Shown here: positions 3,875 through 41,251 of the stretch, in pieces | Position numbering within the stretch: the stretch's first letter is position 1 | Layout: every line of letters starts with the position of its first letter | Source of the DNA: a virus | Reading direction: 5' to 3' (one strand) | Length of the DNA: 50,098 nucleotides | Virus record (IMG/VR): IMGVR_UViG_3300032088_003613 | Span: 1-50,098 of that record | Notes under the pieces: model-generated | What the model was told of the DNA's origin: nothing | Seen by the model: the letters and a program-made list of their open reading frames with translations, nothing else | Database searches by the model: none | Translations under genes and position numbers: made by a program

Positions 3875-3889
3875 GATATTTATTATGTT

Positions 3890-4396: not shown

Positions 4397-4399
4397 GTA

Positions 4400-5032: not shown

Positions 5033-5035
5033 TTG

Positions 5036-5635: not shown

Positions 5636-5637
5636 CT

Positions 5638-10547: not shown

Positions 10548-10596
10548 GGCTTACGGTCATCATGGTATAGGACGCACATTAAAAGAAGCGTAAGCC
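10548..10596 (-). repeat. 8-bp inverted repeat at the 3' end of the tail-fibre operon
   Basis: GGCTTACG (10548-10555) and CGTAAGCC (10589-10596) are perfectly complementary with a 33-base loop. The right arm touches the stop codon of the fibre gene (10596-10598). No T-run follows on the minus strand, so it is more likely a 3'-end stem that stabilises the mRNA than an intrinsic terminator. A 15-codon plus-strand frame (10546-10593) also spans it, but its spacing to a ribosome site is poor. Confidence 0.35.
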
Positions 10597-11087: not shown

Positions 11088-11088
11088 T

Positions 11089-14599: not shown

Positions 14600-14621
14600 A
14601 TATACATGTTATATACATGTA
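14600..14621. promoter_or_regulatory. Tandem 11-bp operator-like repeat upstream of the RHH gene
   Basis: Two adjacent direct repeats, ATATACATGTT (14600-14610) and ATATACATGTA (14611-14621), each hold the palindrome ACATGT (14604-14609 and 14615-14620). Their centres are 11 bp apart, about one helical turn. RHH repressors such as MetJ, Arc and CopG bind this type of layout as side-by-side dimers. On the minus strand a TATGAT -10-like box (14602-14597) ends 13 bases before the RHH ATG and overlaps the repeat, so binding would block RNA polymerase. No good -35 is visible. Confidence 0.6.
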
Positions 14622-17120: not shown

Positions 17121-17190
17121 GAATATATTTTACACAATTGGGATATAATTTTATTAAATTTTATTTTTTACCTGAGCTTTTAAAATAACA

Positions 17191-18977: not shown

Positions 18978-18994
18978 ATATTAAGATACACTAG

Positions 18995-25953: not shown

Positions 25954-25982
25954 ATCATATCACAAAAAACCAGATATGTCAA
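25954..25982 (-). promoter_or_regulatory. Sigma-70-like promoter of the sugar operon
   Basis: On the minus strand TTGACA (25982-25977), a 17-bp spacer, and TATGAT (25959-25954). The -35 is a perfect consensus and the -10 matches 5 of 6. The initiating ATG begins at 25948, six bases after the -10, where transcription itself should start, so the mRNA should have no leader. It drives the minus-strand operon down to the terminator at 17191-17226. Confidence 0.82.
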
Positions 25983-26018
25983 AATTTTTTTTCGGGTTTC
26001 CTTATTTTATGCTTGCTT

Positions 26019-26030
26019 TATGTTAACATA
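26019..26030. repeat. 12-bp perfect palindrome in the divergent control region
   Basis: TATGTTAACATA reads identically on both strands. It lies between the two divergent promoters (25954-25982 and 26132-26160) and 5 bases from a second, longer palindrome at 26036-26053. It is a candidate protein-binding site. Confidence 0.5.
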
Positions 26031-26035
26031 TAGTT

Positions 26036-26053
26036 ATAATATGATCATATTAT
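26036..26053. repeat. 18-bp perfect palindrome in the divergent control region
   Basis: ATAATATGATCATATTAT is self-complementary over all 18 bases, centred between 26044 and 26045. The following 50 bases (26047-26095) are almost entirely A and T. The element lies between the divergent sugar and early operons. It is a candidate operator or a replication-initiation element; the sequence does not discriminate. Confidence 0.55.
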
Positions 26054-26131
26054 TATATATATATGAAATAGTATATATTAATATTATTATTACGTTAGTA
26101 ATAGCAAACCTTTTTTTATTAAAAATTTTAG

Positions 26132-26160
26132 TTGACTTTTCGATTGGTAGGTGATATGAT
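26132..26160 (+). promoter_or_regulatory. Sigma-70-like promoter of the early/replication operon
   Basis: TTGACT (26132-26137), 17-bp spacer, TATGAT (26155-26160). The first codon of the gene at 26168 is eight bases past the -10, so transcription should start at or next to the ATG. It diverges from the sugar-operon promoter 150 bases away, and two palindromes lie between them. Confidence 0.8.
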
Positions 26161-26167
26161 CTTAGTC

Positions 26168-26422
26168 ATGGTTAAAAAAGCTAATAAAGGTAATAGGTTC
26201 TATTTTGTTCAATGCGGAGACTGGGAAGGGGTAACGGTGGCGTCATCACCTAAGGAAGCTTGTCGGGCGGTTACTTCGCAAGCAGTCGAGTTATTTAAGG
26301 AAGATTTAAAATTCACAAAAGTTATAGTATGTGTTGACTGTAAAAAGTCAATAGATGGAAAAGATGACGAAGCGTCGGCTTTCCTTACTGAAAAAATAAT
26401 GGGGGAAATACATGAAAACTAA
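26168..26422 (+). CDS. Small unknown early protein
   Basis: 84 residues from the ATG at 26168; not recognised. Two upstream in-frame starts exist (TTG 26132, ATG 26156), but both lie within the promoter boxes, so they would not be on the mRNA if that promoter is used. GNRFYFVQCGDWEGVTVASS followed by PKEACRAVTSQAV suggests a small alpha/beta domain, and KVIVCVDCKKSIDG has a C-x-x-C pair. It is the first gene of an operon with dNMP kinase, a sigma-like factor and SSB. It overlaps the kinase gene by 11 bases. Confidence 0.62.
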   Translation: MVKKANKGNRFYFVQCGDWEGVTVASSPKEACRAVTSQAVELFKEDLKFTKVIVCVDCKKSIDGKDDEASAFLTEKIMGEIHEN

Positions 26423-26987
26423 TTTTATAATAGGGATTTGTGGTAACGCTAGAAGCGGTAAAGATACTTTTTGTGATTTTGCTAAAAAGTTTTTATCTAA
26501 AAAAAAGGTAGGCGCCGCTAGAGCTGCGTTTGCGGATGAACTAAAGAAAGACTTGGACGATTTATGTAGAAATAAAATAGGTATAAGCGCTTTCACAAAA
26601 GACTCCAAAGAAAAAGAGGTAATTAGACCACTTCTTGTAACTTACGGTACCGATGTAATCAGAAAGATGGATAAAACTTGGTGGATCAATAGACTAGAGA
26701 AAACGCTAGGAGTACATCAACACATGGGATTAATACCTATTGTTACCGACGTAAGGTATCCAAACGAGATGGAATGGATACAAGACAATCACAACGGAGT
26801 GTTAGTCCACATTACGAGAAAGGGTATTGGCCCGGCAAATCAAGAAGAGAAAGAAAATAATCCTATTCTTAAAAAAGGCGCCGACTATAGAATAATGTGG
26901 CCTACTTTCGGAGACAATGACATTGAGCAAGCTAATAGATTTGTTACTAAGACTATGAATAAAATATATAAAAGCAAGATTAAATGA
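26412..26987 (+). CDS. Deoxynucleoside monophosphate kinase (T4 gp1-like)
   Basis: 191 residues. Phosphorylates dNMPs to dNDPs for phage DNA synthesis. The P-loop is IGICGNARSGKDTFCDFA (residues 7-24). LVTYGTDVIRKMDKTWW is a conserved helix of the family, and IVTDVRYPNEMEWI holds the D-x-R-x-x-N-E motif that contacts the phosphate donor or acceptor. T4 gp1 is about 240 residues; this one is a compact form. In T4-like phages the enzyme also handles modified dCMP, which bears on the DNA-modification idea raised for the nearby glycosyltransferase. It has a good ribosome site (GGGGGAAA) nine bases ahead. Confidence 0.85.
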   Translation: MKTNFIIGICGNARSGKDTFCDFAKKFLSKKKVGAARAAFADELKKDLDDLCRNKIGISAFTKDSKEKEVIRPLLVTYGTDVIRKMDKTWWINRLEKTLGVHQHMGLIPIVTDVRYPNEMEWIQDNHNGVLVHITRKGIGPANQEEKENNPILKKGADYRIMWPTFGDNDIEQANRFVTKTMNKIYKSKIK

Positions 26988-27568
26988 ACTTAAGAGATGA
27001 TCAGTTAGTTTTCAATATTCAGCGCGAGTTTGAGGCTGAAAAATGCTTGCTTGAATTAGTTAACAGGCATAGTGGTATATTTTATGATATAGTAAATAGA
27101 TACGTTCCTGTTGATTCTGATATATGCTCGAGGGACGATCTTTTTGATGATAGAAATTTTTATATATACTCTGCTGCTCTTAAATACAAGTCTGACAAAG
27201 GCACTAAATTTTCAACCTTCCTTGGAAATGAGACCAAATGGTTATGTTTGAACTCATACAATAAAGCGAAAAGAAAAAACTGTGTTAACAAAACCCCGGA
27301 AGAGATAGACTTTTTAGATAAACAGGATTCCATAGAGGGTATAGACCTAAATCTCCTTAATGAGATTTATTTCATAATAGATAAGCATCCTGATAGTAGA
27401 GTATCAAGAATATTTAAAATGAGATATAAAGACGGAGAGAAATTAAAACTTTTACCATGGAGGCTCATTGGGCCGAAAGTAAAACTAAGCATCCAAGGGT
27501 GCATAAATATCCACGACACAGTTGTCGAGGACTTAAAGAATAAATTGTTAAAGAAAGAATTATCATGA
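26984..27568 (+). CDS. Phage-encoded sigma-70-like factor
   Basis: 194 residues. AALKYKSDKGTKFSTFLGNE, then TKWLCLNSYNKAKRK, resembles sigma region 2.1-2.3 (helix, G-x-x-F-S-T-F/Y-L, then aromatic and basic residues). The C-terminal part (IFKMRYKDGEKLKLLPW through GPKVKLSIQGCINIH) looks like the helix-turn-helix of region 4. The layout fits a small phage sigma such as the T4 gp55 type, used for late promoters, but it may belong to another group. The gene overlaps the kinase by 4 bases and SSB by 4. Confidence 0.68.
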   Translation: MNLRDDQLVFNIQREFEAEKCLLELVNRHSGIFYDIVNRYVPVDSDICSRDDLFDDRNFYIYSAALKYKSDKGTKFSTFLGNETKWLCLNSYNKAKRKNCVNKTPEEIDFLDKQDSIEGIDLNLLNEIYFIIDKHPDSRVSRIFKMRYKDGEKLKLLPWRLIGPKVKLSIQGCINIHDTVVEDLKNKLLKKELS

Positions 27569-27975
27569 ATAATGTTGTTTTGTCGGGAAGACTAGTAAAA
27601 GATCCAGAATGTAAAGAGTTTGATGGGGGAAAAACCGTTTGCGATTTTACGATTGCTGTAAACGGATATAAGAAAGAAGATACTATTTTTATAAAAGCAA
27701 AAGCTTGGGACGCAAGAGCTAAGAGTTGTTCTAAATTTTGCAGTAAGGGGTCTCTAGTTAATGTATCAGGATCTCTTAGAGAGAATTCTTGGAAAGCTAA
27801 AGATGGATCCAACAGGAAAGAAATTTACATTCTTGCATCTGATATAGAATTTGTACAAAGGCCCCAAGAAGAAGGACAGCCAAAAAATAAAGAAACCAAA
27901 CCTTCAAATCAAGAACCCGCTCCAGTAGAAGTTGATGAAGTTTCTGATGAGCAACTCGAAGAAGTTCCATTTTAA
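27565..27975 (+). CDS. ssb: Single-stranded DNA-binding protein (bacterial type)
   Basis: 136 residues. N-terminal OB fold: VVLSGRLVKDPECKEFDGGK, then FTIAVNG and FIKAKAWDARAKSC, with GSLVNVSGSLRENSW as strand-turn-strand. The C-terminal tail is acidic and ends LEEVPF, the partner-binding tip of bacterial SSB. A Pro/Glu/Gln-rich linker joins both parts. It is expressed with the dNMP kinase and sigma-like gene. The stop overlaps the start of the glycosyltransferase at 27975 by one base. Confidence 0.9.
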   Translation: MNNVVLSGRLVKDPECKEFDGGKTVCDFTIAVNGYKKEDTIFIKAKAWDARAKSCSKFCSKGSLVNVSGSLRENSWKAKDGSNRKEIYILASDIEFVQRPQEEGQPKNKETKPSNQEPAPVEVDEVSDEQLEEVPF

Positions 27976-29060
27976 TGAATTCTTTAATTTTTAAATGTCC
28001 TATAAATAACGTTTCTTTTGGTAACGTATCAGTAAACCTATTAAGGGAGATGCATAAACGCGATATGAATATCGCTCATTTCCCTATAGGTAAACCTGAT
28101 ATTAGCGTATTCGATAAGCTAGGAAAAGATTTCAAGGAATGGCTGCAAACATCAATCGATAATAGATTTAAATTATTAAATAAAGATCTACCGACACTTC
28201 AATTGTGGCACATTAATGGAAGCGAAAATAGGATTACAAGAAAACATCATTTAATAACATTTCATGAATTAGATAGTGTCACGGAATCAGAAAAAAATAT
28301 ATCAAGCATCCACGATAGTATAATGTTCAGTAGTTCTTACTCCTCGAAACTTTTCAAATCAGTTGGATGTGAAAATATATCTCACATAGGAGTAGGATTT
28401 GACCAAGACTTAAACCAGACTGGAAAAGATTACCTAAAAGACAAGGTTCACTTTGGTCTCATGGGTAAATGGGAAAAAAGAAAACACACCGCCCAAATTA
28501 TTAGAATCTGGGCTGATAAATACGGCAACAACTACAATTACCAATTGTCTTGTTGTATCAATAATCCCTTTCTTAAGCCAGAACAGCTTAACAGCTTTAT
28601 AGGTAAAGCCCTAGAAGGAAAGAAATACGGAAACATAAACTTCCTTCCTTTTTTAAAAACTAATTCTGAAGTTAATGAATTACTTAATGCTATAGATATA
28701 GACTTAACTGGATTAAGCGGGGCAGAAGGATGGAACCTGCCGTCCTTTAACGCAACAGCCTTAGGAAAGTGGAGCATCGTACTGAATGCTACTTCACATA
28801 AAGACTGGGCTAATGACAAAAACTGTATACTCGTTGAACCGTCTGGCAAAACCCCAGCTTATGACGGACATTTCTTCCAAGAAGGCGCGATGTTTAATCA
28901 AGGAAATATATATACTTTTGACAGGAGTGATGTAGAATCAAAAATGGAATATGCAGAGACATTGTGTAAACAAGAAAATACAGAAGGTTTAAAATTACAA
29001 AAAGATTTCTCCTACTCTAGTGTACTAGATAAGATAATCAAAAATATTGAAAACAACTAA
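27975..29060 (+). CDS. GT-B (GT4-like) glycosyltransferase in the replication operon
   Basis: 361 residues. The N-terminal Rossmann domain has NVSVNLLREMHKRDMNIAHF and HLITFHELD. The C-terminal domain (VHFGLMGKWEKRKHTAQIIR) has the sugar-nucleotide site region DIDLTGLSGAEGWNLPSFNA, a GT4-like E-x-x-x-x-P-x-x-x-A variant. Its start touches the SSB stop codon, so it is translated with replication proteins. A soluble GT here may modify DNA or nucleotides, or it may simply be part of the wide glycan repertoire. It was not matched to known T4 alpha/beta DNA glucosyltransferases. Confidence 0.78.
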   Translation: MNSLIFKCPINNVSFGNVSVNLLREMHKRDMNIAHFPIGKPDISVFDKLGKDFKEWLQTSIDNRFKLLNKDLPTLQLWHINGSENRITRKHHLITFHELDSVTESEKNISSIHDSIMFSSSYSSKLFKSVGCENISHIGVGFDQDLNQTGKDYLKDKVHFGLMGKWEKRKHTAQIIRIWADKYGNNYNYQLSCCINNPFLKPEQLNSFIGKALEGKKYGNINFLPFLKTNSEVNELLNAIDIDLTGLSGAEGWNLPSFNATALGKWSIVLNATSHKDWANDKNCILVEPSGKTPAYDGHFFQEGAMFNQGNIYTFDRSDVESKMEYAETLCKQENTEGLKLQKDFSYSSVLDKIIKNIENN

Positions 29061-29080
29061 TTAATATATAATATAAAAAT

Positions 29081-29272
29081 ATGAAAGACGAAATTAAATT
29101 CGAAAACGGCAAAGCTATTCTTTGCTGCGGTAGTAAAAAATGCCCCATGCTTCGTAAAAATAAAGAAGGCATGATCGAAATTGAAGATGACTTTGGTGGC
29201 AAAATAACCATTAGAGAAGACCAAGCTAAGTTAATTAATAAAGCTATAGATCAAATCGAAGAAGAAAAGTGA
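29081..29272 (+). CDS. Small Cys-containing unknown protein
   Basis: 63 residues, not assigned to a family. ILCCGSKKCPMLRKN puts three Cys close together, which could bind a metal. The rest, IEIEDDFGGKITIREDQAKL, looks like a short beta strand pair followed by a helix. It is expressed within the plus-strand operon; its stop overlaps the GTG start of the next gene as GTGA. Confidence 0.58.
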   Translation: MKDEIKFENGKAILCCGSKKCPMLRKNKEGMIEIEDDFGGKITIREDQAKLINKAIDQIEEEK

Positions 29273-29577
29273 CAGCAGTTTTAGTACTGCTTTCCTGCGT
29301 TGGCTTGACTTTTATACTAAAGTATGGTTCGATCTTAAATTTAATTCGTTCTTTTTTAATAAAAGCCTCTTTATTTAAAGGTTTGTTTTCTTGCTCTCTT
29401 TGCTTAGGTTTTTGGTCTGGAGTTTTACATTCAGTTTTTTTATATTACTTTGAGTGGAACAATATTTATATACTACTACCGTTCGTATCTTCTTCTGTCT
29501 GTTGGTTTGCCGACTGCTTAATGACTAATATGCAAACTATAGAAATATTAATGGATAAAAAAATAGAAAAAAAGTAA
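29269..29577 (+). CDS. Small membrane protein with CSLCLGFW motif (DUF1360-like)
   Basis: 102 residues starting at GTG (29269) with 4-base overlap. At least three hydrophobic segments are visible: residues 2-17, 36-60 and 66-84. LFSCSLCLGFWSGVLHS is a C-x-x-C motif with GFW, typical of small phage or Bacillus membrane proteins of the DUF1360 type. Predicted inner-membrane location; role unknown. It overlaps the next gene start by one base. Confidence 0.68.
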   Translation: MTAVLVLLSCVGLTFILKYGSILNLIRSFLIKASLFKGLFSCSLCLGFWSGVLHSVFLYYFEWNNIYILLPFVSSSVCWFADCLMTNMQTIEILMDKKIEKK

Positions 29578-29918
29578 TGCCAATTTATTTATATCAAAAC
29601 CCAAAAACCGAAGAATATATAGAAGTATTCCAAGGCATGAATGATAAACATCAATATTTTGATGATGCCGGGCTAGAATGGAAGAGAGTATTTACTTCTC
29701 CCAATGCAGCTATCGATCTTGACGCCAACCCTTACGATCACCAAGGCTTTGTTGATAGAACTAAGGGTAATGGAACGGTTGGAGATTTATGGGACAGGGG
29801 TAAAGAAATGAGCGAAAAAAGAGCCTCTCAAAACGGGGGAGTAGATCCTTATAAAAAAGATTATTTTAAAGACTACTCGAAGAAAAGAAAAGGCGCTAAA
29901 CACCATTCAGATAACTAG
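29577..29918 (+). CDS. FmdB-like small protein without zinc cysteines
   Basis: 113 residues. MPIYLYQNPKTEEYIEVFQG resembles FmdB-type zinc-ribbon starts, but the usual Cys pairs are absent. The second part, GFVDRTKGNGTVGDLWDRGK, then EKRASQNGGVDPYKKDYFKD plus YSKKRKGAKHH, is a basic tail that I recall from small phage proteins of this type. Function unknown. Its stop overlaps the convergent fibre-like gene by 4 bases. Confidence 0.68.
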   Translation: MPIYLYQNPKTEEYIEVFQGMNDKHQYFDDAGLEWKRVFTSPNAAIDLDANPYDHQGFVDRTKGNGTVGDLWDRGKEMSEKRASQNGGVDPYKKDYFKDYSKKRKGAKHHSDN

Positions 29919-31594
29919 GAATTTATTCCTGATACATAAGAGACGTCGTAAATCGTTTCATAGGTCACCCCTCCATCTCCCGGGCAAGCATCGCTATAGA
30001 TATCAATAGTACAAATTCCGCCCCCATCATTACTATAGCTCCCTACGTAAACGTTCCCTGCCGATAAGGTTCCATAATTAGAGCCGTCGTAGTAAACTTG
30101 ATAACCGTCGTACGAGCCCCCATCACCGCATACATAGTCAGCCAGATCGTCGCAGGCAAGAGCAAAGTAACTGCCACCGCCGCCTCCACCGCCTCCAGCG
30201 GAGTCTCCAGTCGCAAAAATAATCCATTGCCCCCCGCAGTATCCGAAAAATCCTCCTGATGTGCTATTGTAAACAATCATGCCATTAACAGGTCCAGAAA
30301 TTGCATTCATTTGAGAATCTGTCATTCGGGGCATGATTGGAGCACTTGATGTAGTTGATATATCTAATATGCCTTGTGGACTTGAGGTCCCTATACCTAA
30401 TCTTTTATCTCCGCTATTATACACAAAATCATTAGATGATCCTAGTATACCTGCGTCATCGGCAGATTCTGAATAAAAAGTTACTCCACTTACGCTTACA
30501 GCACCTATGTTCTTGACATCGCCTCCGCCCAATTTTGAGTTTCCGGGCTCAACCAAAACAATTCCCTGTGATCCATGGCTTCTTATCACATGACCAATAG
30601 GCATTTGATAGTTTGGAGATACAGGTTTAACCCCAGTTAACGCTCCAGATTCTATCGCGAGAAAAACTTCATCTCCGGCAGAAAAATTCAATGTATTCAA
30701 ATCTCCAACAGACCCATGAGTCGTGACGTAACCAAAAGAATTATTACTTATATTATGAGTCGCAAGACCTATAGATTGTGAATTTTCTTCAGAATCAGCG
30801 GAAGCAAGAACAACTGTTGGCGCTTGATCTCCATGGGAACCATTAATCCTAACGGTTTGGCCGTTATTTATAGTTGATCCTATATTATTTCTTACCCTTA
30901 TATATTGCTCTTGGCCTATTTGTAGAGTTATACCAACCTCGTCGTTGTATACGGCTAATGCTTTATTGATTGAATCATAAAACAACCTTCCTTCTTGATG
31001 AGCTGGGGTTGAAATAGTTGAGTCAAAATCTATAGAATCAAAATTTCCAGTGCCACTAGTGATTAGTGTATTTCCAATATTTGCAACGCCGCTAGTTGCA
31101 TTAATAGATCCAGCAGATCCTCCAGTTGAAACTGGAACTCCAGAAATAGTTAGAGATGTAGAAAAGCTTCCTATACTCCCGGTAACTACATTAAAATCTC
31201 CAGTCCCCCCAGAAATCGTTCCATTTTCTACAATTAAATTGCTATTATTTTTTACATTAACTTGGTCTTCTAGATTAATTTGACCTCCGCTAACTTGTAA
31301 TGCGCCATTAGGCCCTTGAGTGGAGTTCCTTGGCGTTGATATAGGGTATCCTATTTTTATTGAATCAGCAAATACAGTATTAGGAGTATATATATTACTT
31401 GGGTCTACCAATATGCCTTGAGCCCCAGAGAAATCAACATTTCCATTAAAGTATTTCCATCCGCTAAAATTAAAATTACCGCTAGATAGTCCAGTTACGT
31501 CATTATTTAAATTCGTTACTTGGCCCTGCAGATCTCCAGACAGTTGATCGAAAGTCGGTTGCAGATTATCTATTTGTTTAAACTTTATTCCCAT
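29915..31594 (-). CDS. Tail-fibre-like virion protein
   Basis: 559 residues. The N-terminus FKQIDNLQPTFDQLSGDLQG gives way to long runs of SG, TG and NN residues (beta-helix-like repeats). A fibre-type segment VYNSGDKRLGIGTSSPQGIL appears at about residue 390 (the G-x-G-T-x-x-P motif). MPRMTDSQMNAISGPVNGMI with VYNSTSGGFFGYCGG is a common pre-C-terminal fibre module. A run of nine Gly (codons near 30174-30200) links it to a Cys-rich last domain of about 85 residues (seven Cys), which may be the receptor-binding tip. Expressed alone, convergent with the early operon. Confidence 0.72.
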   Translation of the reverse strand: MGIKFKQIDNLQPTFDQLSGDLQGQVTNLNNDVTGLSSGNFNFSGWKYFNGNVDFSGAQGILVDPSNIYTPNTVFADSIKIGYPISTPRNSTQGPNGALQVSGGQINLEDQVNVKNNSNLIVENGTISGGTGDFNVVTGSIGSFSTSLTISGVPVSTGGSAGSINATSGVANIGNTLITSGTGNFDSIDFDSTISTPAHQEGRLFYDSINKALAVYNDEVGITLQIGQEQYIRVRNNIGSTINNGQTVRINGSHGDQAPTVVLASADSEENSQSIGLATHNISNNSFGYVTTHGSVGDLNTLNFSAGDEVFLAIESGALTGVKPVSPNYQMPIGHVIRSHGSQGIVLVEPGNSKLGGGDVKNIGAVSVSGVTFYSESADDAGILGSSNDFVYNSGDKRLGIGTSSPQGILDISTTSSAPIMPRMTDSQMNAISGPVNGMIVYNSTSGGFFGYCGGQWIIFATGDSAGGGGGGGGSYFALACDDLADYVCGDGGSYDGYQVYYDGSNYGTLSAGNVYVGSYSNDGGGICTIDIYSDACPGDGGVTYETIYDVSYVSGINS

Positions 31595-31629
31595 ATTCCG
31601 TTTCCTTGTTATAATATATACACTTTACA

Positions 31630-31658
31630 TTGAAAAAGTCCTATAAATATATTATAAT
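31630..31658 (+). promoter_or_regulatory. Sigma-70-like promoter of the 31665 operon
   Basis: TTGAAA (31630-31635), 17-bp spacer, TATAAT (31653-31658), a perfect -10. The ATG at 31665 is seven bases past the -10, predicting a leaderless message. The spacer also contains TATAAATA (31642-31649), which matches the T4 late promoter box, so two promoter classes may overlap here. Confidence 0.82.
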
Positions 31659-31664
31659 CCGACA

Positions 31665-32210
31665 ATGAGTATTTCAATCTATAAACCTAACGCTAAAAAT
31701 TCAGGATCTGGATTTTCTTTTCAAGTAGGAATGTCGTCTAAAAAATACGAGCCTACTCTTTTTATTAAGTCTATATTGCAATCAAATTGGGATTCCAATA
31801 AGAAACAGGGTTCCTTTAAGGGTAATATTGATAACCCAGATAAAAATATTACAGTCAAATTCTCTGAATATGAAGCTGGCCATATCATACATGCAATGAG
31901 AAATAGATGCACTTACACCACGTATCATTCATACGAAAGCGATAGGACAAATATCAAATTCATGCCTTGGGATAAAAAAGCTAAAAAATCCATGAAAAAT
32001 AAAGACGGAGAATGGGAGGATCAATGGGTGGAAGTTCCAGCTTTTAGTATTTCTTTTGTCAGGAACGGTAACCAAAATTTCGTCATCGGCCTAGAACCCG
32101 GTGAAACAGAAACCGTCATAGAATTTTTAAGATTTTATCTTAAAACTTTATTTTCTCATAGATTTGATAAACAAATACTAGACTTCAAAAAGTCTCAAGA
32201 AGAAAAGTAA
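31665..32210 (+). CDS. Putative ssDNA-binding protein (PC4/Whirly-like), tentative
   Basis: 181 residues. Several beta-strand-like stretches (FSFQVGM, FKGNIDNPDKNITVKFSEYE, VPAFSISFVRNG, NFVIGLEPGE) alternate with a helix (EYEAGHIIHAMRNRC) and a C-terminal helix (TVIEFLRFYLKTLFSHRF). That order recalls phage PC4/Whirly-type single-strand DNA-binding proteins, but no signature motif proves it. It is the first gene of an operon with glycosyltransferases and a putative annealing protein. Confidence 0.45.
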   Translation: MSISIYKPNAKNSGSGFSFQVGMSSKKYEPTLFIKSILQSNWDSNKKQGSFKGNIDNPDKNITVKFSEYEAGHIIHAMRNRCTYTTYHSYESDRTNIKFMPWDKKAKKSMKNKDGEWEDQWVEVPAFSISFVRNGNQNFVIGLEPGETETVIEFLRFYLKTLFSHRFDKQILDFKKSQEEK

Positions 32211-32211
32211 A

Positions 32212-34092
32212 ATGCCCCGAAAAAAAATACTTTTTCATAGTAATCATTCTAGAGCGTTTACTGGGTTCGGAAAAAATGCTAAAAATATATTAATACATCT
32301 CTTTAAAACAGGAAAGTATGATATAGTAGAGTTTGCAAATGGGTTTCAGTGGAGTAATCCAGAACTTAAAAAGATGCCATGGAAAACTATTGGTTCTTTA
32401 CCAGATGATCAAGCTCTTCTTCAGGAATTAAATAATGACCCAAAATTAGGCAGGGCGGCTGGATATGGCTCAAGCATGATAGATAAAGTCATAGAGGAAG
32501 AAAAACCCGATATATACATAGGCTGCGAAGATTTTTGGGCTTTTAATGAATACATGAAAAAAAGTTGGTGGAATAAGATAAATTGTATGATCTGGTCAAC
32601 CCTAGATAGTTTACCCATTATACCTGATGCAGTCTCTCAAGCGCCAAAAATTAAAAATTATTATGTCTGGTCTTCTTTTGCAGAAAAAGCCCTAAAAGAA
32701 ATGGGGCATGATCATGTAAAAACTCTACACGGATCGGTAGAAACCTCTTCTTTTTATAGAATGTCAAATGAAGAAAGGTTAAATTTAAGAATATCAAATC
32801 AAATTCATCCCGATGATTATATCATTGGCTTTGTATTCAGAAATCAACTTAGGAAAAGCGTCCCAAACATACTAGAAGGGTTTAAAATGTTCTTAAAGCA
32901 AGAACCAAACTCTAAAGCTAAACTTCTTTTGCACACTAGCTGGGCAGAGGGATGGGACATACCAAGACTTCTTAAGGAAAAAAATATTGACAGAAGCTTA
33001 GTTCTCACAACTTACTTCTGCCAGTCATGCGGATCATATGAAATAAGACCTTTTACAGGCCAAGAACAAGAATGTAGAGCTTGCGGTTCAAAAAAACTAA
33101 ATACGACAAATACATCTCACGGAGTTAACGAAGCTCAGCTTAATGAAGTTTACAACTTAATGGATGTTTATTGCCACCCCTTCACTTCAGGAGGGCAAGA
33201 AATACCGATACAAGAAGCTAAGTTAACTGAGTTGATAACTCTTGTCACTGAATACAGTTGCGGCTTAGACAGTTGCAGCCCAGAGAGCGGCGGTATACCA
33301 TTAGAGTGGTCCGAGTACAGGGAGCCCGGAACTCAATTTATTAAAGCTAGTACTTACGCCTCTAGCATATCTAAAAATATCAAGAAGGTGTACAAAATGA
33401 GCCCTGAAAAAAGAAAAGTAAAAGGACAAAAATCAAGGCAGTATGTTATAGATAATTACAGCTCGAATGCTATTGGAAAAAAACTCGAGAACATACTGGA
33501 TGGGATGCCTGAAGTTTCTTGGGATTTTGATTTCTCTTTCGAAAAAAGAGACCCTAATTACAAGCCCCCTGAAATAAAAGATAACGGCTTATGGATAATA
33601 GATCTTTATAAAAACATACTTAAAACAGATATTAACCAAAACGATGAAGGATTCAAGCATTGGATCAATAGACTAAGTAAAGATATGGACAGGAAGTCGG
33701 TCTTGGAATATTTCCATTCAGTAGCCGAAAAAGAAAATAACGAAAACGTAAAAATAAAGTTTGAAAACCTTTTCGAAGATAATGAAAATAAAAAAGCATT
33801 GATGGTTTGCGCAGGTGATTCCAATTTAGTATTCTCTTCAACTTGCTTGTTAAAATCGTTTAAAGACAATTACCCAAATACAGATTTGTATTTTGCATGC
33901 CACTCTCAATTTCAACATATTCTAAATGGCAATCCGTACATTAAAAAAACTTTACCTTATCATAAGAACATGGAGAATGAATTTAATATGATAGGCAGAG
34001 GAGATTCTAATGGCTACGTGGACTACTATATTAACCTAAACAATTCAACACTTAAAAATATTAGCTCCAAAAATTGCTATGAACTTCATTGA
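32212..34092 (+). CDS. Multidomain glycosyltransferase: GT4-like with zinc ribbon, DUF4214-like, partial GT9
   Basis: 626 residues. Domains in order: GT-B enzyme at 1-430 (ILFHSNHSRAFTGFGKN, GFVFRNQLRKSVPNILEGF, TSGGQEIPIQEAK at 326-337 holding the E-x(n)-E donor site); a four-Cys zinc-ribbon-like loop inside it (C270, C273, C288, C291); a DUF4214-like segment at about 459-508 (LYKNILKTDINQNDEGFKHW); and a GT9-like N-terminal half at about 526-626 (NLVFSSTCLLKSFKDNYP). That half breaks off at the stop codon, and the next gene continues it. It overlaps that gene by 14 bases in the +1 frame. Cytoplasmic; donor and acceptor unknown. Confidence 0.76.
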   Translation: MPRKKILFHSNHSRAFTGFGKNAKNILIHLFKTGKYDIVEFANGFQWSNPELKKMPWKTIGSLPDDQALLQELNNDPKLGRAAGYGSSMIDKVIEEEKPDIYIGCEDFWAFNEYMKKSWWNKINCMIWSTLDSLPIIPDAVSQAPKIKNYYVWSSFAEKALKEMGHDHVKTLHGSVETSSFYRMSNEERLNLRISNQIHPDDYIIGFVFRNQLRKSVPNILEGFKMFLKQEPNSKAKLLLHTSWAEGWDIPRLLKEKNIDRSLVLTTYFCQSCGSYEIRPFTGQEQECRACGSKKLNTTNTSHGVNEAQLNEVYNLMDVYCHPFTSGGQEIPIQEAKLTELITLVTEYSCGLDSCSPESGGIPLEWSEYREPGTQFIKASTYASSISKNIKKVYKMSPEKRKVKGQKSRQYVIDNYSSNAIGKKLENILDGMPEVSWDFDFSFEKRDPNYKPPEIKDNGLWIIDLYKNILKTDINQNDEGFKHWINRLSKDMDRKSVLEYFHSVAEKENNENVKIKFENLFEDNENKKALMVCAGDSNLVFSSTCLLKSFKDNYPNTDLYFACHSQFQHILNGNPYIKKTLPYHKNMENEFNMIGRGDSNGYVDYYINLNNSTLKNISSKNCYELH

Positions 34093-35236
34093 GTCTCTAT
34101 CTTTATCTACTGGTCTTAAAATCGACAAACCTTTTATCGATGATTCTTTTTTTCCTATAGTTGCTGAAAAGTACATCACCTTCTGCACGGAAGGCCACAG
34201 CAGTAAGCAATGGGATCACTTCCAAGAATATATTGACTTAATTTTTCCCATCATTGAAAAAAACAATATAAAAATAGTCGAGATAGGAAGTAATAAAAAA
34301 GTTTTTTCTAAGGTTACAAACCTTAAAGGAGCAACCAATGAAAATCATTGGTCTTATATTATTAAAAAATCAATGCTTCATATTGGGCCAGAAAATTTAA
34401 TTTCACAATTATGCTCTTTGTATAACATCCCTTTTATTGCTTTTTTCTCTAATACCAGCCCTGAATACGCTAGCCCTTCTTGGTCTAAGCCGTCTCCCGA
34501 CCAAATTTTCATTAAAGGATATAAAGATGGAGAATCACCATCCTTTGCTGGAGAAGAGAGCCCTAAAACAATAAATAATATTAGCGCAGAAGAAGTAGCT
34601 AATAAAACATTAAGCATTCTTGGGCTAGATAATGATTTAGGAAAATTTGATATAATTAATATCGGGCAGTCTTACCATCAAAAATTAGTAGAAGTGGTTC
34701 CAGATTTTATTCCAGATGAAAGTTTTTTCCCAAGATCCTTGATTAATATAAGAATGGATTTTGAATTCAACGAGTCCGTGCTTCCTAGTTTTGCAAGTAA
34801 AAGGAAAATATCTATCATTTCGGATAAAGAAGTTAAGACTGATATTATCATGCATTTAAAACCCTCTATTCAAATGTTTTATTTTAAAGTTGATGAGTTG
34901 AGCGACTTTAATTATATAAAAAACCTAAAAGACAACGGTATTGCAATGACTCTTATAGCAAAAGACACAGCTGATATCTCTTTAACTAGACTTCGCTTTT
35001 TTGATTATAAAGTAGAAGAGGATTTTAAAACTACAAAAAAAGATCTTGACAATATAGAAAAAATATGCGATACTACTAGGTATAAAAGCTCAAAAACCAT
35101 CTTTAGTAAAGATGGAGAATTTTCATCAAAATCATCTTATGATAAAAAAATTAACAAGCACAGCAATCAGCTCATCATTGATAACAAAGATTTTTGGGAA
35201 GACCTTCACCACTTTAAACTTTATAACTTAGTATAA
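34079..35236 (+). CDS. GT9-like C-terminal half plus unknown domain (continuation of 32212 product)
   Basis: 385 residues. The first 180 residues look like the second half of a GT9 heptosyltransferase-type fold: KYITFCTEGHSSKQWDHFQE, then MLHIGPENLISQLCSLYNIP, then FIAFFSNTSPEYASPSW (the I-G-x-x-x-x-x-x-x-x-x-x-x-x-P-x-x-x-x-F signature). It lacks the N-terminal half, which is encoded at the end of the preceding gene. Residues 190-385 are unrecognised (SYHQKLVEVVPDFIPDESFF). The ATG lies 14 bases before the previous stop, so it could be translated by coupling, by a +1 frameshift, or the gene may be broken. Confidence 0.66.
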   Translation: MNFIESLSLSTGLKIDKPFIDDSFFPIVAEKYITFCTEGHSSKQWDHFQEYIDLIFPIIEKNNIKIVEIGSNKKVFSKVTNLKGATNENHWSYIIKKSMLHIGPENLISQLCSLYNIPFIAFFSNTSPEYASPSWSKPSPDQIFIKGYKDGESPSFAGEESPKTINNISAEEVANKTLSILGLDNDLGKFDIINIGQSYHQKLVEVVPDFIPDESFFPRSLINIRMDFEFNESVLPSFASKRKISIISDKEVKTDIIMHLKPSIQMFYFKVDELSDFNYIKNLKDNGIAMTLIAKDTADISLTRLRFFDYKVEEDFKTTKKDLDNIEKICDTTRYKSSKTIFSKDGEFSSKSSYDKKINKHSNQLIIDNKDFWEDLHHFKLYNLV

Positions 35237-35238
35237 TT

Positions 35239-35991
35239 ATGTCCCCAAAGAAAAGCGAAACAAAAATAGACAATAGTTTTGGTCCAGAATCTTTTAAAAG
35301 AGACGATCAGGGTCTTTTAGAAAATATCCAATACATATTTAATGAAGATGGCTCTATCAATTGGAGAAAAATGGTTAATGACGAACACCTTTTCCCTAAT
35401 TCTCAAGCTTTTAACGGGAGCCCTCCTTCTTCTATAGAGGGCATTCCTGACAATAAACTTTTAATAAAGCTTGCTGGCATTAAAGAGCTAGCTAGATTAA
35501 GAGGGTTTTCTGATATTTCTTACGAAGTAGTAAAGTGCGAGTTAGATCACGTAGCTGTTATTTGTACAATATCTTTCATAGGGAACTATGAGACAGGATG
35601 TGAGTCAGTCTCGTTTCAAGATATGGCAAACGCAACATTAGACAATACCCATGATTTTGGTCAAAACTTTCTTGAAACCATGGCTTGCAACAGATCTTTT
35701 GTTAGGGCTGTCAGGAACTTTCTTAATATTCATATTGTTGGAGCAGACGAAATTGGAAAATCAAACAACAAAAAACAAGCAAACAAAACTTCTAGCCCAA
35801 AACCCAATTTATCCCCACAGTCAATGCTTGACACTTCATTTGACGGAAATTTTGATGATTTAATTTCAGAGCTTAGAAAATTCTGGGCCAAAGATATATA
35901 TAAAAACAAAGACATTTCAAGCTGGAAAACATTTGATGACATCCCAATCAAGGAAGCTAGGATTCTCATAAAGTTAATTAAGCAGAATTAA
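35239..35991 (+). CDS. Putative ssDNA-annealing/recombination protein (Rad52-like), tentative
   Basis: 250 residues. LLIKLAGIKELARLRGFSDI, then YEVVKCELDHVAVICTISFI, looks like the alpha-beta core of annealing proteins. The helix FLETMACNRSFVRAVRNFLN resembles the A-x-x-R-A-x-x-R-A-x-R-x segment of Rad52/Erf-like single-strand annealing proteins. The C-terminal 70 residues are Lys, Ser and Asn rich then helical (DDLISELRKFWAKDI). Function is inferred from pattern; alternatives include another DNA-repair accessory protein. It follows the split GT9-like gene by 2 bases. Confidence 0.48.
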   Translation: MSPKKSETKIDNSFGPESFKRDDQGLLENIQYIFNEDGSINWRKMVNDEHLFPNSQAFNGSPPSSIEGIPDNKLLIKLAGIKELARLRGFSDISYEVVKCELDHVAVICTISFIGNYETGCESVSFQDMANATLDNTHDFGQNFLETMACNRSFVRAVRNFLNIHIVGADEIGKSNNKKQANKTSSPKPNLSPQSMLDTSFDGNFDDLISELRKFWAKDIYKNKDISSWKTFDDIPIKEARILIKLIKQN

Positions 35992-36020
35992 TTGACAAAT
36001 TCAGTGTATCTTATTATTAT
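35992..36020 (+). promoter_or_regulatory. Sigma-70-like promoter of the 36035 gene
   Basis: TTGACA (35992-35997) is a perfect -35 right after the previous stop codon, followed by a 17-bp spacer and TATTAT (36015-36020). The start codon at 36035 is 15 bases past the -10, so the leader is only about eight bases. A short AAGG ribosome site (36028-36031) lies inside it. It probably drives the two large virion genes. Confidence 0.75.
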
Positions 36021-36034
36021 AAGGTACAAGGTTT

Positions 36035-37156
36035 ATGGCAATTTATGGAATAGATTATTCAAATTTTCCTTCTCCGTTTTATCAAGAGGGGAGTAACTAT
36101 AGGGAAAAAGGCGAGTGCAATCTTTTTCCCTATCTAGCCATACGGGGATCTCCTTTATTTAAAGGAGATAACTCTCTATCAAAAACAGATAACGGTCGAG
36201 ATGCGGTTTACGACGGATGTAATAGATTTCTAATAAATATTTCTCCTCTAGATGAACCAAGTTACCCGAATTCAGGATCCCTCAGGTCGTTATGTAATTT
36301 AGATACATCTCAAATTTATGCTCCAAATCCCAAAACGGATACGAAAAATTATAATTATGGAGCCCCATATTCTTCCCCAAGCCCAAATACTTGCTCACCT
36401 TTTTATTTTGAAAAATATGGCGGAGTCTATGATAACCCCGTTCCTATTCGTGGAGCCCCTGTAGAGTTTAAAAAGGTCTATTTTAGAGGTAAGCTTGTTG
36501 ATCGAGAAAAAGGTTACGATTTAGATTCTGAATCTGAGACTGGATGTCGAACATTTCACGCGGTGTTTGCCTGCTCAAATCCTATAGAACAAACCCTTCG
36601 TCAAGATAAGAGTGACTGCGACGAGCCAGAAGGAACGCTTTATAATTCAAGAGATGAAAACTTCGCCCATTCTGATTATGCGACTGAAAGATCGTGGGAT
36701 GAAATTGATATATTTTGTGGAGAAGGGGGGGGAGAGTCATCCTCTCATTGCAGTTTTCAATTTAATTCTTATATTACTGGAACGAACTACCAAATAGCAT
36801 GCTCTCCGGGAACAGTTAACGGATTATTACCTTCTAATTTTGATTCTGTAGCCCAAATTCCAACAGGTAGTAATGAAAATAAATATATATATCTTGATAT
36901 AGATACCGATGGTAAAAACATAACTTCTGTAAGTTTTGAGGTTTCTAGCTCAGCTTCTTCAACATCGATTAGAGCAAACGAAGGAGGGGCTCAAGATAAT
37001 TTAAAAATTCTTGCTGGAGTATGGATAGATAAGTCCCTGACCTCAATCTTATGTAATAATATATCAATATGCCCCGAGCATGTTTTTTCTGAAGATGATC
37101 CGTCTAATCCTTATTTTCCAAAAAGATGGTATCAATGGAGAATTGATAGTTATTAA
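36035..37156 (+). CDS. Putative virion structural protein
   Basis: 373 residues; family not recognised. Rich in Asn, Ser, Pro, Tyr and Asp with many Cys (CNLF, GCNRF, LCNLD, NTCSP, GCRTF, FACSN, FCGEG), unlike cytoplasmic enzymes. The C-terminal half (FQFNSYITGTNYQIACSPG, GAQDNLKILAGVWID) resembles beta-sandwich modules, ending in WYQWRIDSY. Composition and position before another large Ser/Thr-rich gene suggest a tail or capsid-surface protein. It has its own promoter. Confidence 0.52.
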   Translation: MAIYGIDYSNFPSPFYQEGSNYREKGECNLFPYLAIRGSPLFKGDNSLSKTDNGRDAVYDGCNRFLINISPLDEPSYPNSGSLRSLCNLDTSQIYAPNPKTDTKNYNYGAPYSSPSPNTCSPFYFEKYGGVYDNPVPIRGAPVEFKKVYFRGKLVDREKGYDLDSESETGCRTFHAVFACSNPIEQTLRQDKSDCDEPEGTLYNSRDENFAHSDYATERSWDEIDIFCGEGGGESSSHCSFQFNSYITGTNYQIACSPGTVNGLLPSNFDSVAQIPTGSNENKYIYLDIDTDGKNITSVSFEVSSSASSTSIRANEGGAQDNLKILAGVWIDKSLTSILCNNISICPEHVFSEDDPSNPYFPKRWYQWRIDSY

Positions 37157-37168
37157 ATATATTGACCC

Positions 37169-40100
37169 GTGCAGACTTTTAATAATATACAAGATACTGC
37201 ATTTAGTATCAATAACAGTTGGTCTCAGAAAACTAAATACACATCATCACGCTCTAAATATCGCACGTCTGGTTTTTTAATATATTCAGACTCAGATCAG
37301 GAAGTGTTTGGGAGTAGCACTTTTGATAGCCTGATGTCTAGTAGCTACAGTAATGTTTTCTCTTCTTCAGTTAGGGAAAGGGGTAATCATACAAGCTCAA
37401 CAGCCGCTTTTCATTTTTTAGGAAGTTACGAGAGTTCTAGCTCTTCTTCCAAAACCCACCCCGGATATACAAAGACTTTCACCCATAGCACAAGAACTGA
37501 TTACCCTAAATTTGTTGTTGTTTCTGGAACTGGCTGGTCTGGAAGCGGCATGTTAACGTCAGAAACAGATAGTCGTTTAATTACTAACGGAACGACAGAA
37601 AACTTATTCTACACTAACTCCCAGCGTGTCTTTGATGTTGTAGACCCTGATAATAATACTGAGTATGAAAATACTGGAGTTGGTTACTTTGACACAAGAG
37701 GCCCAGTAATAAGTAATGGTTCTGCTTATTCTGGAATTGTTAGCACGAGCGCAGGAGGAACTGCATTCGTTAAAAATACGTTATCGTATACTTATGAAGA
37801 TACATTTTCATCTATAAGCTCAGATTCCCTAGTCTCATCAACATCTGTAGGTACAAACACTACAATGTTTAACACCACATCAACCCTCAATACACAAACA
37901 CTTACTACATCTATTGTAACAGCTCAATCACAAGAAAAAATAGGAACTGAATTTATTGGGGCTCCGGGCGTTTTATTAATGCATTTAGACTTCACGAAGC
38001 CTAATAGCGCGTATTCTTATAATAATATCGCTAGCCATATTAAAGTAGCTAAATCAATAAAAATTGTTGACACGACTCACAGGAATGTTAGTATGGTTAC
38101 AACTCCAGCTAACTCATTATACACATCAACGGGATATAATGGTGACGACTCTTATAGCTATTACTTAGAGAATGACTCTCAATGGGGTAACCTTGGCGGT
38201 GGCCAACAAGAACAAAAAAGTGAGCTTGTGGCTTCTTATGATGATATAATTTATACATCTGGAAAAGTATCATATGTTAAAACAGCCTCTACTGTTAAGA
38301 CAATATTTAATTCAGGCATAAGCGACTCTGAGTCAAGATCTACTACCATTCTTGATTCAACTAGCGCTCATTCGTATACCTTGTTGGGTAGAGATTTTCT
38401 ATCTACAGCCTCAATAGGCTCAGGTGAATATTATTCTGCATCAGAAAACTCAATAACTTTTTTGTCTACTTTTCTAAATAGAGAGAAAATCAATTTAAAA
38501 GTAAACGAAACAAAATCATTAAATAATGTTAATTATCTTAATGCCGTTACAAAAAGCCAAACAAAAAATTCTAATAATATAAGTTCTTTTAGTGCAACAT
38601 CATTTGAGCGTTCATCTTCTCTAGAAAGTTATGATTCTTTTGGATCTATAGAGACGGCTAGCAGCAACAGAAGTTATATTAATGAACGGGCCGCATATCC
38701 ATACAAAACTAGTTATTTTACTAGACCAAGAGATTACTCACCTTATGAATATGGTAATGCTGAAAATGCGGGAAGGTGGATCCCCCCAATTCCTTCACCA
38801 ATTAATTTAGCGTTAGACTTGAATGATTTCGCGTTAACTTCGATCAAGAATGACTATGGTCATGTTAGTTATTTACAAAACCAAAAGATAGGTACTGATG
38901 GATCTTACTATAATAAACTAGAACCAACATCATTTAAAATCTCCTTTGCGGGCGGCAATTATGGAACTGGTGATTGCACTAATCATGGATTTCATGCTGT
39001 AACCCCAGTGCAACAATCAAGTTACTTTATCGCTAGATTTTTAAGTACTAACGACGAAGGAACCCTAATTAGTTATTCTACAGACTTTGATAGGATTACC
39101 TTGAGCTATACAGACTCTGATCTAGAAAGCTCCGCTTTAAGCTCAACGTTGGTCAAAATTTCTCAAGATCAACAAAATTTAAATTGGGGCTCTTCTTTAA
39201 TAGATGGAGCGACTCGATTCACAAAAAATAGAGGTGACATTTATTATTCAGAACAGTCTATACGAACTTCCACCAACAGTAATGCATACGATACATCTGG
39301 CCCAGAAAGTTTTCAAATAACTGCGGGCGGAAACAAAGACGAGCTTATTATAACAAATGACTTTGGAGATATCGTTCCATCGAATAGCAAATCAAATTTT
39401 ATAAAAACAACCTCTAATAACGAGCGTACTGCTTTTTTTAATACTGTTTATAATGTAGATGGTTACAATCGATTCGGAGAAATACAGAACCTTTTTAATT
39501 TGGATTATTTTACCGCAGGAGGTATATTAGATAACGGAGAAAATAAATCTGTTACATTTATTAATAAAGTTAACCCTCAGCTCAGCCAACTTAAATATTC
39601 TTACTATGATAGAAGTAATAGCTCTTTAGTGGCTGGTGTTTCTTCTTTTAATAGGTCTTTTTCAACTCAAGGCAGTAAAGTAACTACATATAAGCCTATT
39701 GGTCCTAGCATCCATAGCTCTACTGAAGATCAAATTACATATTCTACGCCATTCACTTTAGGTGAAAACAATAACAATTCATTCCCAATTTCTATCGCAG
39801 GCGGCTCAGAATTAACAACTGTGATGCGTGCTAATAACAGCTCAAACGTCAATCGAAAAATGAGTCCTTCTTTTGGAGCTTTTAATACGGTTGTTATTGG
39901 GGAAATCAAGCCTAACACTGATATACTTGGTATTGGATGCGCTTCTCACCTTCCATCCTCTTCAGGTCAAGATGTTCTTCCAGTTGGAGCTTTTGCTAGT
40001 TCTGAAAAAGAAGCGGTTTTTAGTACAATCCTTGGTTCAAATCACAAACACGCTCTCGAAGCCGATACAATATATGCAAAAACTGCAGCGGGAGCAGATG

Positions 40101-40177
40101 ATATTACAGGCCCTAACTGGACTACCACCGGAAAGATGTTCGGTTTCGATTCTAAATTTGGAACTAAAATGTATTGA
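37169..40177 (+). CDS. Large Ser/Thr/Asn-rich putative virion protein
   Basis: 1002 residues from a GTG at 37169, 12 bases after the previous stop. Extremely Ser/Thr/Asn/Tyr-rich, with regular patterns such as SSYSNVFSSSVRERGNHTSS and SNNISSFSATSFERSSSLES. There are few Lys and almost no Cys, typical of extended fibre or whisker proteins. The C-terminal part (FGAFNTVVIGEIKPNTDILG, GFDSKFGTKMY) seems a folded end domain. Possible acceptor for the O-linked glycans the phage may make, as inference. Family unknown. Confidence 0.55.
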   Translation: MQTFNNIQDTAFSINNSWSQKTKYTSSRSKYRTSGFLIYSDSDQEVFGSSTFDSLMSSSYSNVFSSSVRERGNHTSSTAAFHFLGSYESSSSSSKTHPGYTKTFTHSTRTDYPKFVVVSGTGWSGSGMLTSETDSRLITNGTTENLFYTNSQRVFDVVDPDNNTEYENTGVGYFDTRGPVISNGSAYSGIVSTSAGGTAFVKNTLSYTYEDTFSSISSDSLVSSTSVGTNTTMFNTTSTLNTQTLTTSIVTAQSQEKIGTEFIGAPGVLLMHLDFTKPNSAYSYNNIASHIKVAKSIKIVDTTHRNVSMVTTPANSLYTSTGYNGDDSYSYYLENDSQWGNLGGGQQEQKSELVASYDDIIYTSGKVSYVKTASTVKTIFNSGISDSESRSTTILDSTSAHSYTLLGRDFLSTASIGSGEYYSASENSITFLSTFLNREKINLKVNETKSLNNVNYLNAVTKSQTKNSNNISSFSATSFERSSSLESYDSFGSIETASSNRSYINERAAYPYKTSYFTRPRDYSPYEYGNAENAGRWIPPIPSPINLALDLNDFALTSIKNDYGHVSYLQNQKIGTDGSYYNKLEPTSFKISFAGGNYGTGDCTNHGFHAVTPVQQSSYFIARFLSTNDEGTLISYSTDFDRITLSYTDSDLESSALSSTLVKISQDQQNLNWGSSLIDGATRFTKNRGDIYYSEQSIRTSTNSNAYDTSGPESFQITAGGNKDELIITNDFGDIVPSNSKSNFIKTTSNNERTAFFNTVYNVDGYNRFGEIQNLFNLDYFTAGGILDNGENKSVTFINKVNPQLSQLKYSYYDRSNSSLVAGVSSFNRSFSTQGSKVTTYKPIGPSIHSSTEDQITYSTPFTLGENNNNSFPISIAGGSELTTVMRANNSSNVNRKMSPSFGAFNTVVIGEIKPNTDILGIGCASHLPSSSGQDVLPVGAFASSEKEAVFSTILGSNHKHALEADTIYAKTAAGADDITGPNWTTTGKMFGFDSKFGTKMY

Positions 40178-40202
40178 AAAAATATATATTTTGATATATT
40201 AT
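40174..40202 (+). promoter_or_regulatory. Sigma-70-like promoter of the 40208 glycosyltransferase
   Basis: TTGAAA (40174-40179), 17-bp spacer, TATTAT (40197-40202). The gene's ATG at 40208 begins six bases past the -10, so the transcript is predicted leaderless. A second ATG at 40204 in another frame precedes it but opens only a 14-codon frame. Confidence 0.75.
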
Positions 40203-40207
40203 CATGC

Positions 40208-41251
40208 ATGTTATTAACGATAAGTACTTACGCCACCAAAAGGTATAAATATGCACTCCCGAACTTTGGAAGAAGAATATCAGCCTCTATAGTACAATCT
40301 AAAATCCCTAATGGGCTATTTATATTTGTAGGAGACGAGTCAGAAGAAATAGAAAAAGGAAGCAAAAAATATGTTCAAGACGTACTGCCCTCTGGCTGGG
40401 ATTTTAAATTAATACAACTACCCATAGAGGATGACAAGCTTGAAAACTACAAAGAGGACGCTCAATTTGTTATCGCTAATTTACAATCAACCGCATTTAC
40501 TGAAGCGAGAAAGTTGAGGGCGACTCATTTTTGGAGTGTCGAATCCGACGTCTTGGTTGCGCCAAACGCACTTTCTGTTTCTATGGATTGCTTGAAATTC
40601 GATAATGGATATTATGACGTAGCAATGTGCACTTACCCTTCCCAAGGAGGAGGTCCGTTCTTAGGGGGAAGAGGAACCCTGCAACATCAAATAGCAGAAG
40701 ACTTTACTCAAGAAGAAAAAGAAATTCCTAAAAAACTTCTTTCTGAAATGAGTAAAAGAGAAAAACAAGCTAAAAAAGAAGATTTTGAGCCTAGCGAAGA
40801 ATGGCTTAAAAGAGGCTCAGAAATACATGAAGAAATCAAAAGCTCACCCCCAAAAGGAAATGTTTTTGATGCTAACGCAAAAAAATGGAGAAAAAGAGGA
40901 TGGATGGAATATGCATATCCAGCAATTGGAAAAGGAGCGGTAGTTCCTACTGACTGGGTCGGACTTGGATGCACAATGCTAAGCGAAAGAGCATTAAGCC
41001 TTGCCCACTTTGACGGGTATGAAGGGAAAGGAACTCAGGATCTTTATATAGGATGGAGAAGGTGGAAGCAAGCTAATTTAAATATGTGCGTAACAACTCA
41101 TGCTATATGTGATCATGTAGTAAGAAAAAGAGATGGCGAGAATCAACTCTGGGAAGATTTCACTCTTGTTCATGCTTATCATGAAACTGAAGGCGAATGC
41201 GAAGGGCATTTAAGACAACACCATATTCCTTTTCATACTATTTCTGATTAA
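40208..41251 (+). CDS. GT-A type glycosyltransferase with VESDVLVAP motif
   Basis: 347 residues. An alpha/beta N-terminus (GLFIFVGDESEEIEKG) leads to ARKLRATHFWSVESDVLVAP, where E-S-D replaces the canonical D-x-D. GLGCTMLSERALSLAHF and GKGTQDLYIGWRRWKQAN form the acceptor-side region, with VTTHAICDHVVRK near the C-terminus. Residues 160-240 form an acidic/basic charged insertion (EEKEIPKKLLSEMSKREKQA). It is a monocistronic gene with its own promoter, convergent with the virion operon (12 bases between the stops). Confidence 0.72.
   Translation: MLLTISTYATKRYKYALPNFGRRISASIVQSKIPNGLFIFVGDESEEIEKGSKKYVQDVLPSGWDFKLIQLPIEDDKLENYKEDAQFVIANLQSTAFTEARKLRATHFWSVESDVLVAPNALSVSMDCLKFDNGYYDVAMCTYPSQGGGPFLGGRGTLQHQIAEDFTQEEKEIPKKLLSEMSKREKQAKKEDFEPSEEWLKRGSEIHEEIKSSPPKGNVFDANAKKWRKRGWMEYAYPAIGKGAVVPTDWVGLGCTMLSERALSLAHFDGYEGKGTQDLYIGWRRWKQANLNMCVTTHAICDHVVRKRDGENQLWEDFTLVHAYHETEGECEGHLRQHHIPFHTISD

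Follow-up and report, generated by a model that had tools for sequence, protein, structure and literature searches.

In bacteria, the leaderless genes described as "TA-led" by Zheng et al. (2011) are widespread and account for more than 20% of genes in Actinobacteria and Deinococcus-Thermus (PMC3160421), and the model for leaderless phage messages is lambda cI, whose mRNA begins with a 5'-terminal AUG and is translated without a Shine-Dalgarno (SD) site (PMC9031893). In the giant phage AR9, which possesses two multisubunit RNA polymerases, the 5' UTRs measure 26-491 nt (PMC5312081). Phage leaderless mRNAs are usually seen as exceptions, and a literature search, incomplete in its coverage, returned no report of a phage lineage that is leaderless genome-wide. 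In this article, I will discuss a stretch of viral DNA of 50,098 nt (the window) together with its relatives, in which the fusion of promoter and start codon appears to extend across the genome, and I will argue that these very probably represent a genome-wide leaderless promoter system in an undescribed lineage of large phages, with the predicted RNA start at, or within about 2 bases of, the A of the ATG.

The window, a record of 50 kb, comes from a large uncultured myovirus whose genes include nrdA, many for sugar modification and one for a tail sheath with a distant likeness to the sheaths of phiKZ-type phages. Positions 1-10382 hold a cluster of sulfotransferase-, glycosyltransferase- and UDP-galactopyranose-mutase-like genes, which suggests sulfated sugar decoration or a change of the host surface. 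Also, upstream of an RHH-like gene (14375-14584, minus strand) lies a palindrome, TACATGTATATAACATGTATA (14601-14621), that is kept in three related contigs (G001, G002 and G003) and is likely to be an autoregulatory operator. No match to the genes for proteins of 626 aa and 181 aa turned up among 50,697 phage records; 61 related viral contigs were reached through a conserved glycosyltransferase and more through two further genes, and several of these contigs were fetched nearly whole. Of ten MAG bins containing relatives, at least five are labelled Bacteroidota and others include Woesebacteria, Halobacteriovorax, Lokiarchaeota and Verrucomicrobiales; the 626-aa gene has relatives (L147-L156) in MAGs that bear the labels Flavobacteriaceae, Cytophagaceae, Verrucomicrobiales, Halobacteriovorax, Woesebacteria and Lokiarchaeota, a mixture of labels so broad that the phage contigs were probably mis-binned. 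Complete one-piece tmRNA genes occur in related contigs (L100:6721-7082 and L121:17110-17473), and tRNA genes in some; a relative's tmRNA gave short matches only to 296 Bacteroidota genomes, mostly in the tRNA-like 3' end, and a search for a phage-borne ribosomal protein S21 found none.

The initial annotation had pointed to five sites in the window sharing a 29-bp sigma-70-like pattern (TTGAMW, exactly 17 bp, then TATDAT), and all five are there, with no further match, compared to a shuffled mean of 0.57 and a maximum of 3 (100 shuffles). If d is defined such that the ATG begins d bases past the final base of the -10 hexamer, a fresh reading of the distances returned the same values as before, namely 6, 8, 7, 15 and 6 for sites 1 to 5 (Table 1), and the pattern followed by an ATG at d=6-8 has four matches in the window versus a mean of 0.02 and a maximum of 1 in 200 first-order Markov simulations. 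In sigma-70 promoters the usual +1 is the seventh base after the -10, so at sites with d=6-8 the RNA would begin at the ATG, give or take about 1 base. Leaderless spacing, with a -10 ending some 5-8 bases before the start codon, is found at sites 1, 2, 3 and 5 and is absent from site 4 (d=15).

Table 1. Predicted promoters, associated genes and the candidate sigma-like protein in the window (class A and class B as defined in the text).
Feature	Position	Strand	Associated gene or remark	ATG	d
nrdA class B promoter, GTG-TAAAAT	17127..17135	-	nrdA	17120	7
Epimerase class B promoter, AGTG-TATCTT	18983..18992	-	epimerase gene	18977	6
Gene 1, family 2 glycosyltransferase	25211..25948	-	GT2 Pfam match; predicted leaderless start	25948	
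Site 1, class A promoter, TTGACA-N17-TATGAT	25954..25982	-	glycosyltransferase gene	25948	6
Site 2, class A promoter, TTGACT-N17-TATGAT	26132..26160	+	gene 2	26168	8
Gene 2, small protein	26168..26422	+	first of an operon with dNMP kinase, sigma-like protein and SSB	26168	
Sigma-factor-like protein, 194 aa	26984..27568	+	candidate class B reader		
Class B element, AGTGTAT	31618..31624	-	gene 29915-31594; kept in G001, G002 and G003		
Site 3, promoter TTGAAA-N17-TATAAT-C	31630..31658	+	gene 3	31665	7
Gene 3, MSISxYKPNSKN... family	31665..32210	+	start codon fixed by N-terminus conservation	31665	
Site 4, TTGACA-N17-TATTAT match	35992..36020	+	probably not the functional reading	36035	15
AGTGTATCTT, class B element within site 4	36003..36012	+		36035	23
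Site 5, TTGAAA-N17-TATTAT	40174..40202	+		40208	6

Orthologs support a predicted leaderless start at two of these sites. At site 2 the orthologs in G001, G002 and G003 keep TTGACT, TAT[A/T]AT and d=8 amid divergent flanking bases, and at site 3 a recognisable element is present in 30 of 48 distinct ortholog upstreams, at d=6-9 in 14 of these and mostly at d of about 16-31, without an SD, in the remainder, such that some gene 3 orthologs keep the promoter with a leader of roughly 10-25 nt. The start codon of gene 3 itself is right because the N-terminal conservation of the protein begins at the called ATG. Orthologs of site 1 lie in differing contexts and so provide no conservation test, and here it is the strong consensus, together with position and spacing, that argues for a leaderless reading; the orthologs of site 5 are also located in other contexts and offer no informative comparison, and spacing alone points to such a start. 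The TGA of the site 5 -35 doubles as the stop codon of the gene at 37169-40177, with a gap of 30 bases, and after this site two ATGs overlap in different frames within 40203-40210 (40204 and 40208), the first only 2 bases past the -10. Site 4 is probably a leadered late promoter of the GTGTA class, with a leader of roughly 15 nt, a reading made more likely by d=15 and by the AGTGTAT at 36003, of which AGTGTA(T) is kept upstream of the G001 and G002 orthologs; a pattern search of viral contigs found no relatives of the genes beginning at 36035 and 37169.

The wider group comprises 13 related uncultured phage contigs plus the window, in which a simple coding-score caller, blind to promoters and ribosome sites, called 2,162 genes, 920 of them preceded by a gap, and kinship among contigs was handled by counting gene families. 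The class A element (TTGA-N18-20-TANNNT) stands at d=6-9 before 135 of these 920 genes, in 79 families, versus 3.15 with a maximum of 7 in dinucleotide shuffles; the enrichment over shuffled sequence that the initial annotation had made its test is thus strong in the related genomes, and its proposal that the ATG lies at the transcription start is supported for the set, which peaks sharply at d=7, and probably fails for site 4. The full profile is 4 sites at d=1-5, 137 at d=6-9, 55 at d=10-19, 50 at d=20-40 and 57 at d=41-80, and 50-kb stretches of other phages treated alike hold no class A site at d=6-9 in T4, HTVC008M and pT24 and one in P-SSM2. A model-free count of 6-mers places TTGACA at exactly -35 from the ATG in 44 of its 103 occurrences and CTTGAC at -36 in 42 of 101, and the exact pattern with d=8 was matched 13 times in 26 contigs and its reversed control not once. 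The first class A set (144 matches) has spacers of sigma-70 type, with 17 bases in 99, 16 in 38 and 18 in 7, and a C at position 5 of the -35 in 72%; pyrimidines occupy the position before the ATG in 94% of the matches at d=6, 73% of those at d=7 and 78% of those at d=8, and G in 0-3%. A pyrimidine at -1 is expected if the A of the ATG is +1, and the larger 13-contig set favors one modestly, with 69% in class A against 61% in the remaining genes that have a gap upstream. Furthermore, the lengths of same-strand intergenic gaps have a peak at 31 bases, where 20 of 26 genes carry class A at d=6-9, and in these the TGA stop of the upstream gene sits inside TTGACA.

Only about one quarter of gap-preceded genes carry class A or the second class, B, at d=6-9, as do 49 of 158 divergent leaders, and one related contig (G008, L405-L411) has no class A site and ten class B sites at these distances; leader habits therefore vary within the phage group. 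The design is also not exclusive to it. Scans of the whole collection for the d=7 and d=15 patterns, with ratios taken among the matches listed and not as totals, found an ORF of 60 aa or more beginning at the ATG in 80 of 131 matches listed at d=7 versus 36 of 124 at d=15, and only 1 of 120 loci among those listed has at least three gene families in common with the group, so leaderless-type promoters are not limited to it and putative promoters with exactly d=7 commonly precede ORFs elsewhere among environmental viral contigs.

Class B, [A/T]GTGTA[A/T/G], has no -35 box. AGTGTA peaks at -15/-16 from the ATG in the model-free count, and the class is found at d=6-9 before 75 genes (52 families) of the 13 contigs and the window versus 1.9, with a maximum of 5, in shuffles; it is rare ahead of internal genes and stands before genes for the tail sheath, tail proteins, protease and other large genes. 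The initial annotation had described the nrdA site as a weaker version of the first motif and was correct about the TAAAAT, d=7 and the missing TTGAC box, but nrdA shares GTGTA with the epimerase gene, and this recurs upstream of several orthologs of both, so the site belongs to class B rather than being a weakened class A element. The leader of gene 29915-31594, which has its own class B element, holds AAGGAAA and is an SD-like, leadered exception. Two described motifs were tried and rejected: the Bacteroidota promoter TTTG-N17-21-TANNTTTG, with 0 matches upstream of 519 genes, and the T4 late motif TATAAATA, with scattered matches only, no positional peak and no enrichment.

The candidate reader of class B is the sigma-factor-like protein of Table 1, which has a PHROG sigma match (E 6.7e-5) and a Pfam Sigma70_r2 match that falls below the cut-off in the window (E 0.016) and reaches E 0.0016 in an ortholog. 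Its AlphaFold model (pLDDT 84.7) draws Foldseek matches dominated by sigma factors, with probability 1.0 but TM of 0.3-0.43. A copy was found in all 13 related contigs, and the most divergent belongs to G005, the sole contig without a class B promoter at d=6-9, which suggests that the sigma-like protein reads class B.

The initial annotation had also held that downstream genes of the same operons often have ribosome sites, and this did not survive, since SD 4-mers are near background: 0.10 versus 0.07 in the control over all 2,162 genes of the group and 0.06 versus 0.04 in the window, compared by the same measure to 0.53 versus 0.07 in T4 and 0.41 in HTVC008M. None of the 135 class A genes and none of 73 class B genes has such a 4-mer, an absence that is partly forced because the same bases are taken up by the -10. 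Some genes retain an SD-like sequence: AAGGA precedes 29915-31594, and a few late genes have a conserved GGAGGAT. Among them is the gene at 10596-11087 (minus strand, adjoining the tail sheath), whose orthologs keep the SD-like GGAGGATTAATT (GGAGGAT; 11088-11105) and which would be one of the few SD users of the group.

In the scheme that I favor, the promoter sequences with their spacing, enrichment and conservation are observed, as is the near-background SD frequency, and the exact RNA 5' ends, early and late timing, the class B reader and the mode of translation are inferred. RNA would start at, or no more than about 2 bases from, the A of the start codon and the mRNA would be leaderless; class A (CTTGAC[A/T]-N17-TATAAT-like), resembling a host's primary-sigma promoters, would serve mostly small, replication or unknown genes, and class B, for which the sigma-like protein encoded by the phage is the probable reader, would serve virion genes along with some metabolic ones, nrdA for example. 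Ribosomes, probably 70S, would load directly on the 5'-terminal AUG of first genes, and operon-internal genes, which are also without SD sites, may depend on coupling or on A-rich, SD-independent initiation.

It is possible, although I lean against it, that this layout comes wholly from a host with leaderless genes of its own and reflects that host, not a strategy of the phage; the proposal is about where the layout originated and is compatible with the scheme above. Near-background SD usage would suit a non-SD host, and Bacteroidota, the commonest MAG label (at least 5 of 10), are without SD sites (PMC6847099). Bacteroidota promoters, however, have the form TTTG/TANNTTTG (PMC6847099), which has 0 matches upstream in the phage group; in F. 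johnsoniae, 87% of the mRNAs for which a promoter is probable carry leaders longer than 10 nt (PMC6847099), class A sites at d=7 are few in the ten MAGs, and 50 kb of the Tenacibaculum phage pT24 contain no site at d=6-9.

Considerably less probable is that the promoters are real and that RNA starts a few bases past the ATG or at a nearby purine, with a downstream start codon or a leader of 3-10 nt being used. The distance from -10 to start in sigma-70 promoters does vary by a few bases, d itself spans 6-9, and the 55 class A promoters at d=10-19 would fit such short leaders; the sharp mode at d=7, the nearly empty d=1-5 bins and the pyrimidine at -1 argue for a start at the ATG instead, and the gene 3 protein shows N-terminal conservation starting with the called ATG. 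Chance in AT-rich DNA, by which TTGA...TATAAT-like strings common in intergenic DNA of 35% GC were simply picked near ATGs, has next to nothing left in its favor for the set, which it is refuted for by the excess over dinucleotide shuffles, the position-locked 6-mers and the conservation of sites 2 and 3 in orthologs; it stays for site 5 alone, which, perhaps with site 4, is AT-rich and not conserved and could be such a string. That the TTGA...TATAAT sites are operators or other binding sites, spaced from the ATG by the geometry of repression rather than by leaderless transcription, is just as implausible, for the conserved palindrome near the start of the RHH gene indicates that regulation near an ATG exists, but two unrelated promoter classes have the same -10-to-ATG spacing in more than 100 gene families.

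With the leaderless promoter system as the preferred reading, I would tentatively go further and propose that the whole lineage was converted to leaderless units, with one host-type and one phage-sigma promoter class, and that the loss of leaders and ribosome-binding sites, with the -35 box reused as the stop codon of the preceding gene, could favor translation by undissociated 70S ribosomes during infection. A lineage with promoter and start codon joined throughout the genome makes a clear test case of how phages win ribosomes without SD sites. The promoter spacing would also provide a rule to correct gene starts in such genomes and an in-silico map of 5' ends for a phage group in which no cultured member was found, and the lineage supplies a candidate phage sigma factor with a defined target motif.

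How, then, does this group compare with the systems introduced at the outset? Like bacterial TA-led genes, it combines a -10-like signal about 10 bp before the start codon with the lack of an SD (PMC3160421), but here the carrier is a phage lineage, with a strong TTGACA fixed at -35 from the ATG, a second class without a -35 and stop codons overlapping the -35. Lambda has one leaderless gene, whereas at least 100 gene families are predicted to be leaderless in this group. The pairing of a small phage sigma-like protein with a -10-only class before virion genes resembles T4 late promoters and gp55 by analogy; the motif is GTGTA instead of TATAAATA, the spacing predicts leaderless RNAs, and T4 uses SD sites while this group is near background. 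Finally, AR9, likewise a large phage, has distinct motifs for its early and its late promoters, and its two RNA polymerases and its 5' UTRs set it apart from the group described here with its predicted leaderless starts.
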